Virus record (IMG/VR): IMGVR_UViG_3300027754_000257
Coordinates: 1 to 34,390 of that record
Strand: one strand, 5' to 3'
Length of the DNA stretch: 34,390 nt
From: a virus
Shown here: positions 14,447-19,583 of the stretch, in pieces
How positions within the stretch are numbered: the first letter of the stretch is position 1
Layout of the letters: every line of letters begins with the position of its first letter
Notes under the pieces: model-generated
Told to the model about the DNA's origin: nothing
Databases searched by the model: none
The model's input: the letters and a program-made list of their open reading frames with translations, nothing else
Translations under genes and position numbers: made by a program

Positions 14447-16460
14447 TCATGGACAGGGCAATGGGGACCGCAACCCGTCCCTGTCAGTGACAGACGCCGA
14501 TGGCAAGCTGCTGCTCAAGTGCCACGGTGGCTGCTCACAGCATGATGTTTGGGCAGCTGTCAGGGACTTAGGGCTGTTGCCCCAGCTCAGTGAGTGGGTT
14601 GAGCCTCTGGTGATCAGGCCAATCAATGGGCATCACCCGGCACCAGTGCAAGTGCCAGTACCCCGTCCACCGGGGCAGTTACCCCGTTCAACGGGGCAAG
14701 TGAATTTGACAGGTGAATGGGAGTATGCTGATGAGCATGGCGTGGTGCTGTTTGTCAAGCAAAGGTTTTGGACTTCAGACACCAAGGGCAAGACGTACAA
14801 GCTGTTGCGGGTGCTGGAGGACGGTTCACGCCAGGCGTCGATGCAGGGTGCCAGGGTTATTCCCTACCGCCTGGCAGATGTCCTTGAGGCCAAGCGCCAG
14901 GCAAAGCCAGTGTTCCTGTGCGAAGGGGAGAAGGCTGCTGATGCCCTGGCGTCTATTGGAGTGTTCACCTCCACATCTCACACTGGTGCAGGCAGTTGGC
15001 CTGCCGCCAACAGCACCTGGTTTGCCGACCTCAACATTGTCCTGGTCCCGGACAATGACCAACCCGGTTACCGCTATGCCTCCCTGGTGGCGTCAGCACT
15101 TCTTCCCCTTGCCAAGAGCGTCAGACTTCTGGCGTTACCCGTTGGACACACTGAGGATGCGTTTGAGTGGGTGATGGCTGGTGGTGACAAGGCTCAACTG
15201 ATGGCGCTGTGCAAGGGGCTGCAGCCAGTGCTGGACGCTGAGTCCATTGTGTATCTCCCACCAGCAGCAGAAGACTCAGAGCCATCGACAGACCTATCGT
15301 TAGACGCCGAGGCTTTTGAGTCAGAGCCAGCGTTAGAGCTGGTGCCAGCGGAAAGCAAGATCAGGATTGAGCCTTGGGACACCATCCAGGATGAGCCTGT
15401 GGAGTGGCTGATTCAAGACGTACTGCCCCGCAAAGGTTTCAGCGCACTCTTTGGGCCACCAGGTTCATTCAAATCGTTTGTGGCACTGGACATTGCTCAC
15501 TCAGTGGCTACAGGAACAGCTTGGATGGGCAAGGAAGTCTCAACGCCTGGGGCAGTGCTGTATATCTGTGGCGAAGGTCATGGCGGTGTTGGCGCAAGGA
15601 TCAGAGCCTGCCGCCTGCATCACAAGACTGAGCCAGGCGCCAAGGTCTACGTCATTAGGCACCAGCTCAACCTTCGCAGCTCGAAGGAGGACATCCAGCA
15701 GCTGCACCTTGCCATCAGCAACCTTGTGCAGCGGGAGGAGATAAGGTTTGAGCTGGTCCAGGTGGACACCCTGGCTCGAGCGTTTGGCGGTGGAAATGAG
15801 AATGACAGCTCAGACATGGGTGCCTTCATTGCCTCGCTCTCAAAGATTCAGCGGCTGTTGGACTGCGCCTTGCAGATAGTCCACCACGTTGGAAAGGATA
15901 TCACTAAGGGTTTGCGTGGACATAGTTCTTTGCTTGGTGCATTGGACACTGAGTTGGAGTTACAGCGTCTGGATTCAGCATTGCAAGATAATCAATATGC
16001 TGGGTCAGGCAATATAACTATCACCAAACAGAAGGATGGAAGTGATGGTGCAAAGTATGGGTTTCGCATGGTTAAAGTTAATCTAGATAATGGTCGGTTG
16101 GGGTTTGATAATACCCAGAGTTTGGCGGTTGAGGCAGCGGATATCGTTGTCAATACCCAGCAAGTAGGCTTGAATCGGACAGGCCAGGGCAAGCACCAGG
16201 GCAAGGCAATGACCGCTTTTGTCGAGTCTTTGAGGGAAACGGACCGCATCCAGACCACTAAGTTTGGGTCTAAACGGGTGGCTTTGGTGTCATTGTGGCG
16301 GGAAAAAGTGTGGCGAGGATTGGGAAAGACAGGAGAAATCAAGTCCCAGGACAGCGATTTTCGCTCAATCTGGAGGGCAGCGACAGGTCTTGAGGGTGTG
16401 ACGTTGGACGGTGACTTTGCCTTTTTCAGCACCAAAACGGCTGAAAAGGAGCATTTTTAG
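14361..16460 (+). CDS. Bifunctional primase-helicase (zinc finger, TOPRIM, RepA-like AAA ATPase)
   Basis: This 699-residue protein has three domains. Residues 20-60 form a zinc finger (Cys25, His30, Cys54, Cys58; LLLKCHGGC). Residues 180-260 form a TOPRIM domain (FLCEGEKAADAL with Glu188, and VLVPDNDQPG with Asp231/Asp233). Residues 340-560 form a RepA/DnaB-type ATPase with Walker A GPPGSFKS (365-372), Walker B LVQVDT (Asp469) and LQIVHHVGKD. It should prime and unwind DNA at the phage fork. Two 21-bp tandem repeats lie in the zinc-TOPRIM linker. The ribosome binding site is weak. No phage polymerase accompanies it, so the host polymerase is probably recruited. Confidence 0.9.
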   Translation: MDAKLIAAALGRSRPAANGEWLASCPVVDHGQGNGDRNPSLSVTDADGKLLLKCHGGCSQHDVWAAVRDLGLLPQLSEWVEPLVIRPINGHHPAPVQVPVPRPPGQLPRSTGQVNLTGEWEYADEHGVVLFVKQRFWTSDTKGKTYKLLRVLEDGSRQASMQGARVIPYRLADVLEAKRQAKPVFLCEGEKAADALASIGVFTSTSHTGAGSWPAANSTWFADLNIVLVPDNDQPGYRYASLVASALLPLAKSVRLLALPVGHTEDAFEWVMAGGDKAQLMALCKGLQPVLDAESIVYLPPAAEDSEPSTDLSLDAEAFESEPALELVPAESKIRIEPWDTIQDEPVEWLIQDVLPRKGFSALFGPPGSFKSFVALDIAHSVATGTAWMGKEVSTPGAVLYICGEGHGGVGARIRACRLHHKTEPGAKVYVIRHQLNLRSSKEDIQQLHLAISNLVQREEIRFELVQVDTLARAFGGGNENDSSDMGAFIASLSKIQRLLDCALQIVHHVGKDITKGLRGHSSLLGALDTELELQRLDSALQDNQYAGSGNITITKQKDGSDGAKYGFRMVKVNLDNGRLGFDNTQSLAVEAADIVVNTQQVGLNRTGQGKHQGKAMTAFVESLRETDRIQTTKFGSKRVALVSLWREKVWRGLGKTGEIKSQDSDFRSIWRAATGLEGVTLDGDFAFFSTKTAEKEHF
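14659..14700 (+). repeat. Two tandem 21-bp repeats, each a CCCCG/CGGGG hairpin
   Basis: Units 14659-14679 and 14680-14700 each contain CCCCG, a 5-base loop (TCCAC or TTCAA) and CGGGG. They encode the 7-residue repeats VPRPPGQ and LPRSTGQ in the primase linker. The repeat keeps frame and the stems are conserved while the loops differ. Confidence 0.7.
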
Positions 16461-16470
16461 TCAAATAATC

Positions 16471-16601
16471 ACAAATGGTACAAATCGTACAAATGGGCAA
16501 CGATTTGTGATTAAAGCACCAGTACAAATCGTCTCCAGGGTATAACCTGGACGATTTGTGCTGCACGATTTGAGTTAGGCGAAAAAAGGTGGACAAATGG
16601 T
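16471..16601. repeat. Iteron-like array: eight copies of a 9-bp repeat (ACAAATSGT)
   Basis: Forward copies: ACAAATGGT 16471-16479, ACAAATCGT 16480-16488 and ACAAATGGG 16489-16497 (three units with no gap), ACAAATCGT 16524-16532 and ACAAATGGT 16593-16601. Reverse copies: 16500-16508, 16551-16559 and 16565-16573 (last base changed). The array fills the gap between the primase-helicase and the next gene, and the last copy covers that gene's start codon. It resembles the iterons of plasmid and phage origins, or a multi-site operator. Confidence 0.8.
16524..16559. promoter_or_regulatory. Long inverted repeat within the 9-bp repeat array
   Basis: ACAAATCGT at 16524 and ACGATTTGT at 16551 are extended inward by CCAGG and CCTGG, giving a 14-bp stem with a small bulge around GTATAA. 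The loop contains TATAAC, which could be a -10 element, but no good -35 lies at the right distance. It may extrude as a cruciform or act as a paired binding site. Confidence 0.6.
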
Positions 16602-17253
16602 AAAAGCAAAGACAGTGGTGGATGAAGGGTCTAGTTTCCAGCTAGATGAGTTTAAGGTGAAGGCTGAGTCCTTGGTGGCCCAGCTTGAGTGGGTCAAGCA
16701 AAACCATGATGCGAGGTGGGGCATGAAACGCATTGAGATGTTGGTGGATGCTAACTTGCGGCTGAAGTTGATGCAGCAGATGGAGCGAGTCTTTAATGCT
16801 CAGCGGGACAGGGACATTGAGAAGATGGAGAAGGCTGTAGCGGGAATGATTAAGGGCTATGGTGTACTTGACGCCTGGGCGTTAGATAATAATATTGAGG
16901 AGAAACCAGAGGTCAATGCAGTGGAGTGGGTGATGCAAGACAAGAGCATCATGGTGGTGGTGCAAACTCATAATGACGCTGTATATTATCAACAGTTCAG
17001 ACCCGAGTTAAGCAACCGACACATATGGTCGATGGAAGAGTTAGAGTTACTACTTGAATCAGATGTGATCAAGGATATTATGAAAGCCAAGGCATTACTA
17101 CCAGGTACACGCATGACGAGGATTGCGCCTGGCGGTGGTGCCACAGGATTTGATGACCTGCCAGACTGCGACATTGACCTGAGTGGTGGTTTAGCCAACC
17201 CGCTGTTTAACTTTGATCACGCAAAGGCGATGAAGGCTCCAGCAAGCCGCTAA
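16597..17253 (+). CDS. Hypothetical protein beside the iteron-like array
   Basis: This 218-residue protein has AAAAGGTGG before the ATG. Residues 10-95 are strongly helical with a charged coiled-coil look (LRLKLMQQMERVFNAQRDRD), followed by a mixed domain (EWVMQDKSIMVVVQTHNDAV) and a Gly-rich, acidic C terminus (PDCDIDLSGG). No family is recognised. A 9-bp array copy overlaps its start codon, so the array-binding protein could control it, or it could itself be that protein. It directly precedes the terminase genes. Confidence 0.7.
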   Translation: MVKAKTVVDEGSSFQLDEFKVKAESLVAQLEWVKQNHDARWGMKRIEMLVDANLRLKLMQQMERVFNAQRDRDIEKMEKAVAGMIKGYGVLDAWALDNNIEEKPEVNAVEWVMQDKSIMVVVQTHNDAVYYQQFRPELSNRHIWSMEELELLLESDVIKDIMKAKALLPGTRMTRIAPGGGATGFDDLPDCDIDLSGGLANPLFNFDHAKAMKAPASR

Positions 17254-17333
17254 AATGGACTCAGGTGGCGCTACAAGGGCAATGTGAGTCTTGTGGTGCT
17301 TGGTGCAAGCTAAAACGATTGTGGAGCGTTCTG

Positions 17334-17768
17334 ATGCCGGGTAACCCGAAAGTGCGACAAGACGTTACGCTGCTGGAGGACATTGACAGCGAGATCGTTC
17401 TGTCCATGTTTGAGGTGGGCAAGTCCAAGGCCGACATCTGCCGTGAACTGGGTATCGGAAGGCGTGGATTGGACAAGTGGATTGATGAGAATGACTACGA
17501 GCCTATAATTACACGCGCGCGGGTGGAGGCGGCAAGTTTCCTCGCAGCTCAGACATTGGATATTGCGGACAGCATCGACGACGACAATCCAAGCAAGCCG
17601 ATGCACCGCATCCGCACTAGGCAGTGGCTGGCCGAGAGGTGGGACGCGAAGACGTATGGCGCAAAGCAGGCCGCGGTGACGGTCAACATCGGCAACTTGA
17701 GGCTGGACGCGCTGCGCCAGCTCGAAGTGGTCGAGGACTTATCCACAGGCGAAACACCCTCTTTCTGA
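17334..17768 (+). CDS. terS: Terminase small subunit
   Basis: The ATG at 17334 is preceded by GGAG at a good distance and gives 144 residues; the frame is open further back to a GTG at 17265, which would add CESCGAWC, a possible Cys motif, but that start lacks a ribosome site. Residues 18-50 form an HTH (MFEVGKSKADICRELGIGRR) that should bind the packaging site. Residues 60-112 (ARVEAASFLAAQTLDIADS, then RIRTRQWLAERWDAKTYGAK) match the helical oligomerisation region usual in Sf6-type small terminases. A DnaA box lies in its last codons. TerL follows 405 bp later. Confidence 0.8.
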   Translation: MPGNPKVRQDVTLLEDIDSEIVLSMFEVGKSKADICRELGIGRRGLDKWIDENDYEPIITRARVEAASFLAAQTLDIADSIDDDNPSKPMHRIRTRQWLAERWDAKTYGAKQAAVTVNIGNLRLDALRQLEVVEDLSTGETPSF

Positions 17769-17826
17769 CAGTGCCCTGTGGATAACTACAACTTTTGACG
17801 AAAACGCTTGTATAGGCTGTGGATAA
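17739..17826. other. Cluster of three perfect DnaA boxes (candidate origin)
   Basis: TTATCCACA at 17739-17747 (inside the terS end), and its reverse complement TGTGGATAA at 17777-17785 and 17818-17826. All match the consensus R-box exactly. An A/T-richer stretch follows (GTTAACATAATGG at 17838-17850). Three exact 9-mers in 88 bp are unlikely by chance. Confidence 0.7.
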
Positions 17827-18173
17827 GCCATTCTCTTGTTAACATAATGGTCGTTGTATTAAGCATTCGGTGCATAACTGCCACTTTGTACGCTTTTGGT
17901 GGCAGAGCAGCCAGCCGCCTACCGACAGCCGCCTGACCCCTGCCGCGGGGCGCTCGAGCGCCGCTCCCAGCCGCCGCCGCGCCGACCCCCCCCGTCCCGG
18001 CGCTTGGCGGGGGGCGACAGTTGCAGCACCAAACACCTAGCGAAAAAAATAAAACGTAATGCGCCACACGCCAAGCACAACACGCCAAGCACCCCCCCCC
18101 CGCCACCCGCCAAACGCCAAGCACCAAACACCACCCGCTTCCCAAAAAAAATAAAAAATGCATAATGTGAAAT
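17769..18173. other. 405-bp noncoding region between terS and terL
   Basis: This gap holds two of the DnaA boxes at its left end, an A/T-richer stretch, then an extremely C-rich block (about 17900-18110) with poly-C runs near 17986 and 18092. It includes a 14-bp perfect palindrome (GGCGCTCGAGCGCC, 17949-17962). CGCCAAGC occurs three times forward (within 18067-18078, 18081-18092 and 18113-18124) and once inverted near 18000. The last 40 bases are A-rich with CATAAT at 18161-18166. I find no convincing gene. Its place beside the terminase genes makes it a candidate packaging (pac/cos) and replication site. Confidence 0.6.
18067..18124 (+). repeat. Three direct copies of ACGCCAAGCAC upstream of terL
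   Basis: CACGCCAAGCAC occurs at 18067-18078 and 18081-18092 (14-bp period) and ACGCCAAGCAC again ending at 18124, with a poly-C run between the last two. An inverted GCTTGGCG lies near 18000. Short direct repeats beside terS/terL often mark small-terminase binding sites; this is inference. Confidence 0.55.
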
Positions 18174-19583
18174 ATGAACGCTGACGCTAACCCGTTCCTC
18201 GCCTTTGCCAAGCTGTACCGCAACAACCCCGTGCTGTTTGTCAGGGAGGTGCTTGGCGTCAAGCCTGACCCCTGGCAGGAGGAGTTCTTGGGGCATATAG
18301 CGGCAAACAACAGGCGCATCAGCGTCAGGTCCGGGCATGGCGTAGGGAAGAGTACGGCAGCGTCCTGGGCAATCATCTGGTACCTGCTGTTGCGGTTTCC
18401 CGTCAAGATTGTGGTCACAGCGCCTACCTCAAGCCAGCTATATGACGCCCTGTTCGCTGAGCTGAAACGCTGGGTCAAGGCGCTGCCGCCAACGCTGCAG
18501 GAGCAGCTGGAGGTGAAGCAGGACCGCATTGAGGTGAAGGAGGCTCCCACTGAGGCTTTCGTCAGCGCCAGGACATCACGCGCAGAGCAGCCAGAGGCAC
18601 TGCAGGGAGTGCACAGTGAGAATGTGATGCTGGTGGCCGACGAGGCCAGCGGTATACCCGAGCAGGTATTTGAAGCGGCAGCAGGCAGTATGTCGGGCCA
18701 CAAGGCTGTAACTTTGTTACTAGGTAACCCGGTCCGCAGCAGCGGTTTCTTCTACGACACCCATAACAGGCTGCGAGATGACTGGGTGACCATGAAGGTG
18801 AGCTGCGCCGACAGCCCGAGGGTGAGTGACGCCTACATGGACGAGATGAAGTCTAGGTACGGCGAGGAGTCCAACGCCTACCGGATACGGGTGCTGGGAG
18901 ACTTCCCGCGCAGCGATGACGACACCGTGATACCTATGGAGTTGCTGGAGGCGGCTATCAACCGGGACGTTGCCATGAGTCCCATTGCCCAAGTGGTGTG
19001 GGGGCTGGACGTTGCGAGGTTTGGCAGTGACAGGTCAGCCCTGTGCAAGCGTCAGGGGAATGTGATTACCGAGTTGAAGACCTGGAAGAACCTGGACCTG
19101 ATGCAGCTGACTGGTGCGGTGATGGCTGAGTACCAGGCGCTGCAGCCAAGCCAGCGTCCCCATGAGATCATGGTGGACAGCATTGGGTTGGGTGCTGGGG
19201 TGGTGGACAGGCTGCGTGAATTAAAGTTACCAGCCATTGGCATCAATGTGGCAGAATCCCCGGCATTGGGCAGCACCTACAGGAATCTGAAGGCTGAGCT
19301 GTGGCACAAGGCCAAAGCCTGGCTGGAGAAGCGGGACTGCAAGATTCCCAAGGATGAGGGTCTGATTGCCGAGTTGGCAACTGTGCGGTACTTCTTCACC
19401 AGCAGCGGGAAGATTCAGATTGAGGGCAAGGACGAGATTCGCAAGCGTGGCCTGGCGTCACCAGACAAGGCTGACGCATTCTGCTTGACCTTTGCTTCTG
19501 ATGCCGGGACTGCGATGTATGGCAGCTTTGGTGGTAGCAAGTGGGGCCAGGGGATTAGACGTAACCTAACGAGGGCAGCATGA
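18174..19583 (+). CDS. terL: Terminase large subunit
   Basis: This 469-residue protein has both TerL domains. ATPase: Walker A SGHGVGKST (53-61), Walker B VMLVADEAS (151-159, Asp156-Glu157), followed by the coupling segment LLLGNPVRSSG. RNase H-like nuclease: GLDVARFGSD (Asp279), IMVDSIGLGAG (Asp335) and SPDKADAF (Asp431/434). It cuts concatemers and drives DNA into the prohead. There is no clear ribosome site; CATAAT at 18161-18166 lies 7 bases before the ATG, so a leaderless transcript is conceivable. Length is normal for the family. Confidence 0.95.
   Translation: MNADANPFLAFAKLYRNNPVLFVREVLGVKPDPWQEEFLGHIAANNRRISVRSGHGVGKSTAASWAIIWYLLLRFPVKIVVTAPTSSQLYDALFAELKRWVKALPPTLQEQLEVKQDRIEVKEAPTEAFVSARTSRAEQPEALQGVHSENVMLVADEASGIPEQVFEAAAGSMSGHKAVTLLLGNPVRSSGFFYDTHNRLRDDWVTMKVSCADSPRVSDAYMDEMKSRYGEESNAYRIRVLGDFPRSDDDTVIPMELLEAAINRDVAMSPIAQVVWGLDVARFGSDRSALCKRQGNVITELKTWKNLDLMQLTGAVMAEYQALQPSQRPHEIMVDSIGLGAGVVDRLRELKLPAIGINVAESPALGSTYRNLKAELWHKAKAWLEKRDCKIPKDEGLIAELATVRYFFTSSGKIQIEGKDEIRKRGLASPDKADAFCLTFASDAGTAMYGSFGGSKWGQGIRRNLTRAA

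Follow-up and report, generated by a model that had tools for sequence, protein, structure and literature searches.

The window analysed here, i.e. the whole stretch of 34,390 nucleotides of the viral record IMGVR_UViG_3300027754_000257, carries directly 3' of a primase-helicase gene an array of short repeats, followed by an ORF of 218 aa (16597-17253) and then by the genes for TerS, TerL, portal, scaffold and capsid (Table 1). The 218-aa ORF, which in relatives always lies between the array and terS, has no relative in Pfam, PHROG or phage records. A pattern search for ACAAATSGK retrieved seven exact copies and an eighth with one mismatch, all within 16471-16601, and no exact copy in the rest of the 34,390-base window. 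Since chance would give about 1.24 exact copies over the whole window and 0.005 over 131 bp, the probability of finding seven of them in one place is about 1e-20, or about 3e-18 once corrected for position. A sequence-only reading of this DNA had described eight copies, all in noncoding DNA and without any other copy elsewhere. The exact search bears out the latter point; the number of copies is right for seven exact ones, the eighth (TCAAATCGT) being mismatched, and the noncoding location is right except for the last copy, which overlaps the ATG of ORF 16597. The first three copies indeed follow each other head to tail and gapless, but the alternation of inverted and direct copies proposed for the others does not hold: the orientations along the array are + + + - + - - +.

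Table 1. Features of the array and of its surroundings (positions in the window).
Feature	Positions	Strand	Basis
Primase-helicase, 699 aa	14361-16460	+	Pfam, PHROG, AlphaFold model, invariant residues
C-terminal domain of the primase-helicase, residues 591-699, proposed iteron reader	16131-16457	+	Covariation, predicted fold
Long inverted repeat TAATCACAAATGGT / ACGATTTGTGATTA around iterons 2-3	16466-16513		Repeat search
Iteron 1, ACAAATGGT	16471-16479	+	Pattern search
Iteron 2, ACAAATCGT	16480-16488	+	Pattern search
Iteron 3, ACAAATGGG	16489-16497	+	Pattern search
Iteron 4, ACAAATCGT, inverted	16500-16508	-	Pattern search
Hairpin CAGTACAAATCG-tc-TCCAGG-gtataa-CCTGGACGATTTGTGCTG, 2-nt bulge on 5' arm	16520-16563		Fold prediction
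Iteron 5, ACAAATCGT, hairpin 5' arm	16524-16532	+	Pattern search, hairpin analysis
Iteron 6, ACAAATCGT, hairpin 3' arm	16551-16559	-	Pattern search, hairpin analysis
Iteron 7, TCAAATCGT, one mismatch	16565-16573	-	Pattern search
Iteron 8, ACAAATGGT, overlapping the ATG of ORF 16597	16593-16601	+	Sequence, pattern search
Perfect DnaA boxes TTATCCACA, three	17739, 17777, 17818	+, -, -	Sole perfect boxes in the window

Two inverted-repeat structures built on the iterons had been overlooked by the sequence-only reading: the long inverted repeat and the iteron-armed hairpin of Table 1. The predicted single-strand fold of the array reaches z-scores of -4.6 and -5.2 against shuffles, each strand beating all 200 of them. 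The cluster is unique in the window and likewise in relatives—in those that are near-complete, the word is dense solely at the array—and the gene of a replication protein adjoins it, as is expected for iteron-type origins.

This protein matches Pfam AAA_25 (E 2e-38) and the primase/helicase families of PHROG, the DNA primase matches covering residues 112-282. The helicase half is of the RecA/RepA type, with a Walker A motif GPPGSFKS at 365-372. In the other half, a zinc-finger-like N-terminus (C25, H30, C54, C58) and a Toprim-like region (E188, D231, D233) have residues that are invariant in 73 sequences; Pfam returned no Toprim match, so that a primase half with zinc finger, Toprim and catalytic acids is recognised by pattern only. 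The best matches of the AlphaFold model are the T7 gp4 replisome (5ikn, E 8e-11) and RSF1010 RepA (1nlf/1g8y); the RecA-like ring-helicase domain expected of a T7 gp4-type protein is present according to AAA_25 as well as to 5ikn and 1nlf. Among cultured relatives, the best helicase matches are only near 30% identity, and inspection by eye revealed no such array directly downstream of the RepA-like gene of MW202711.

The C-terminal domain is a predicted winged helix: modelled alone, it folds as H-EE-H-H-EE (pLDDT 80.7) with the winged helix at about 613-689. Its structural matches are the winged helices of CRP, Cdc6/ORC and MCM, with generic scores (Z up to 5.6). Pfam gave no convincing match for this domain and a profile search against PDB sequences nothing credible. 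Among the collected loci it was found solely as the end of this helicase and never apart from it, e.g. in a nuclease fusion, all short hits being contig-edge truncations.

Relatives were gathered as 113 distinct IMG/VR records spanning the end of the gene and the following DNA, and in nearly all of them an array lies directly 3' of the helicase stop. At a helicase identity of at least 78%, the same word occupies the same place. In a clade at about 46-50% identity the layout is the same—tandem copies spaced by about 9-11 bp come first, an inverted copy follows, and last comes a hairpin whose arms carry copies—with other words: GATCGGAAG, TGGAGACATT, AGCGACAAA, GGTAACA, GACGGAATGG and more besides. 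Defined by repeated 6-mers, the words form 17 to 19 classes depending on the threshold. A search of IMG/VR for the triple word gave hits with the same helicase upstream, hits at contig ends and, for the rest, mostly coding repeats of unrelated proteins (of glycine-threonine-asparagine type), a few further hits being other noncoding repeats; a search of host genome contigs for prophages gave weak relatives only. Two of the loci, L024 and L051, belong to one contig of 39,747 bp (IMGVR_UViG_3300034068_000046), on which one and the same array is present at two places separated by 36,910 bp. That genome is terminally redundant or circular, of about 36.9 kb, so that our 34.4-kb window is probably slightly incomplete.

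Some other features of the window deserve mention. Between 11156 and 12306 lie a queuine tRNA-ribosyltransferase-like gene and a Vut_1 (YhhQ-like) gene, which suggests a 7-deazaguanine or queuosine metabolism and perhaps DNA modification. At about 17838-17866, beside the DnaA boxes, a motif cTTAACATAATG...GTrTTAA-like is conserved in ten aligned phages; by eye we take it to resemble XerC/XerD dif-type sites, which would suggest Xer-based dimer resolution or dif integration. Just before terL, at about 18000-18180, the DNA of the window's clade is very C-rich and repetitive (C runs, CGCCAAGC/CGCCAC repeats), possibly a genome-end or packaging region.

The diversity of the words allowed us to ask which part of the locus follows them. 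Over 792 pairs of phages with a core identity of at least 0.80—pairs which are not mutually independent—similarity of the word correlates with that of the C-terminal domain (Spearman 0.83), and the partial correlation is still 0.82 when the core, the N-terminus and the downstream gene are held constant. For the same pairs the correlation is 0.23 with the helicase core and -0.06 with the N-terminus; for the homologue of ORF 16597 it is 0.10 with the protein start and 0.26 with the remainder. When the word labels were permuted within four clades, the observed partial correlation was reached 0, 0, 0 and 1 times in 2000. The correlation with the C-terminal domain lies between 0.80 and 0.84 in each bin of core identity from 0.75 upwards and vanishes below (-0.03, -0.04), partly because different clades share the word ACAAATGG, which is common to phages whose C-terminal domains are only 10-20% identical. 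This may reflect an old shared specificity or convergence. Within the domain, the predicted third helix (residues 665-676) is one of the places where the word classes differ most (0.84 v 0.36, 0.67 v 0.22, 0.97 v 0.49). ORF 16597 was also considered as the iteron reader and rejected: it shows no covariation, belongs to no family and has no match in the phage records.

Pairs of close relatives with different words illustrate this behavior. When L040 is compared with L043 or L044, all from the distant clade, identity is 16-40% over the final ~100 aa of the primase-helicase, against mostly 92-100% over its other parts (with two blocks at 70-76%), the ORF 16597 homologue at 89-91%, TerS at 97-98% and TerL at 97-98%. 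At the nucleotide level, L048 and L043 agree mostly at 88-97% in the upstream gene; identity falls to 37-47% between -360 and about +60 and is back at 83-100% from +120 on, over several hundred bases. Reciprocally, L048 and L176 have nearly the same word and similar domains within more diverged surroundings. By these alignments, near-identical phages differ by a joint replacement of C-terminal domain and array, as one cassette between conserved flanks. The trees agree with this: with the k-mer definition of words and FastTree trees, at least 38 word changes are counted on the core tree against 21 on the C-terminal-domain tree, the minimum being 18. Inheritance of the cassette by linkage is conceivable, but its downstream neighbour does not follow; linkage alone is thus a poor explanation, ORF 16597 being equally close to the array.

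The hairpin behaves differently from the word. A strong predicted hairpin with word-bearing arms is found in nearly every clade, in most cases with a 5' arm that has a short bulge, and its apex follows the core clade, not the iteron word. The apex is AGGGTATA in 22 of the 22 phages of the window's clade and ATCCCTTWAGGGAT in 7/7 of another; in two further clades, a constant apex extends across seven word classes each: GAGAGTCT...CTCG (26/26) and TGC(N)TTAATGC (15/17, or 15-17 of 17). Because the apex is constant within a clade and the word is tied to the C-terminal domain, the array appears to contain two separable elements. The constant apex would perhaps be tied to something conserved as well, the primase half or a host factor.

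These data make it quite probable that the array is the replication origin of the phage, read by the C-terminal domain of its own primase-helicase. The sequence-only reading had proposed an origin recognised by a phage initiator, and the covariation of the word with a domain of the primase-helicase speaks in its favor. It designates the protein encoded from 14361 as the likely recogniser, not the one encoded from 16597; the covariation is strong, and this initiator may bind the iterons specifically. The origin reading is favored because the covarying domain belongs to a replication protein. In the sequence of events that we propose, the winged-helix domain would bind the 9-bp iterons, and the three head-to-tail copies, spaced by 9-11 bp or about one helical turn, would allow cooperative binding. 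Several subunits gathered in this way could assemble the ring helicase at the origin and open the DNA, while the iteron-armed inverted repeats might extrude as the predicted hairpin. Synthesis would then be started at or near the hairpin apex, either by the primase half of this chain or by a factor of the host. Domain and array being exchanged together as a cassette, related phages would switch origin specificity along with its reader.

It may be asked whether the true origin lies instead at the perfect DnaA boxes, 1.2 kb downstream of the array, where terS ends and ahead of terL, the array being an accessory for copy control, incompatibility or distant helicase loading. This stretch (17739-17826) contains 2-4 boxes in 16 of 16 relatives inspected, and the GC skew, which does not change sign at the array and is uninformative as a test of it, drops locally at 17.5-18.5 kb, coinciding with this stretch. 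On the other hand, many phages with their own primase-helicase need no DnaA; and in phage phiM5 a direct terminal repeat occupies the same intergenic stretch, so that this DNA may have a role in genome ends, in dimer resolution or in regulation. Of the alternatives weighed here, an origin at the DnaA boxes is the serious one; we consider it unlikely. The perfect boxes being found only there, nothing indicates a DnaA-dependent origin at the array itself; the cluster might act as a second initiation element or as a rival one, a candidate for dependence on host DnaA, and a bipartite arrangement of both is possible. The alternative put forward by the sequence-only reading, a cooperative operator, would regulate ORF 16597 and the downstream packaging genes, at the level of transcription or of translation, through the C-terminal domain or another protein, without any origin role. 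Iteron 8 overlaps the start codon of ORF 16597, a copy is retained there in the window's clade, and one weak promoter-like site ends at 16469. Yet the presumed reader belongs to a replication enzyme and the word covaries with this protein, not with ORF 16597; in the 46-50% clade the array stops well short of the start codon, and an operator does not need an iteron-armed hairpin with a constant apex. It thus loses ground to the origin and appears quite improbable.

The position of the array upstream of terS, and the fact that terminase sites can have repeats, recall a pac/cos site for packaging, to which the small terminase (gene at 17265) would bind. We rejected this reading, which is hardly credible: TerS remains 97-98% identical between L040 and L043 or L044 despite completely different words, so that the specificity of the site does not follow TerS, and the word follows the helicase domain. 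The terminal repeat of Sinorhizobium phage phiM5, one of the tailed-phage records with a TerL relative, moreover adjoins terL, lying just before it. The strong hairpins predicted on either strand could also belong to a structured RNA—attenuator, riboregulator or terminator—rather than to a DNA site. No Rfam match and no terminator-like T-run were found at the array; besides, the head-to-tail copies with their period of 9-11 bp contribute nothing to an RNA fold, and the covariation with a winged-helix domain argues against an RNA, which makes it very improbable.

We found no published description of this primase-helicase/array family in the open-licence literature. T7 gp4 is the best structural match of the full primase-helicase model, and for T7 gp4 itself origin binding by a winged-helix tail is not known. 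The alpha protein of phage P4 (discussed in PMC4234260) unites primase, helicase and a C-terminal origin-binding domain, the same association on one chain as proposed here, but its helicase is of another family; the P4 origin sites are not known to have the present architecture. By analogy of function, the closest systems are the RepA and origin of PLE, the pri-rep-ori of PICI, and pRN1. In PLE, satellites of Vibrio cholerae, the DNA-binding domain of RepA covaries with an iteron origin, the remainder of the protein being conserved; domain and origin have been swapped several times, and only cognate pairs replicate (PMC7145576, PMC8263062). Covariation of domain and iterons and module swapping are common to PLE and to our phages; however the PLE initiator is of the RepA_N type without predicted primase/helicase activity, its binding domain is N-terminal, and PLE is a satellite, not a phage. 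The SaPI/PICI iteron origin lies immediately 3' of the initiator gene, as does the array, and initiator and primase are sometimes fused (PMC6092414); it consists of two iteron sets around an AT-rich stretch, at variance with the three tandem copies, one inverted copy and iteron-armed hairpin found here. The crenarchaeal plasmid pRN1 encodes a primase-helicase, orf904, with a C-terminal winged helix (predicted in our case), and just downstream a stem-loop origin whose sequence varies between conserved flanks (PMC4234260), but with an archaeo-eukaryotic primase, an SF3 helicase and no iterons. RSF1010 oriV, served by RepA, RepC and RepB', associates iterons with priming stem-loops (PMC4234260), and its RepA is the closest plasmid structural relative of our helicase; there three separate proteins act, against one chain for the proposed reader, the helicase and the primase here. 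A T7-type primase-helicase with a fused winged helix, together with iterons and an iteron-armed hairpin, is found in none of PLE, PICI, pRN1 and RSF1010.

More tentatively, the origin could require two keys, fast-changing iterons that the swappable winged helix would read and a fixed apex that the conserved core of the primase would read, both on a T7-type primase-helicase able to load itself. If this were true, competition among replicons or parasites that target origins, as known from PLE and the ICP1 nuclease Odn, would drive the frequent swaps of the cassette. The family provides about a hundred natural combinations of a small winged-helix domain with the cognate word of 9-11 bp, in related and sometimes nearly identical phages, so that the recognition code, the compatibility of origins and the reason for their rapid switching become directly testable. 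This would show how a T7-type primase-helicase acts as its own origin-recognition protein, and the array marks the likely start of replication for a large group of uncultured phages.
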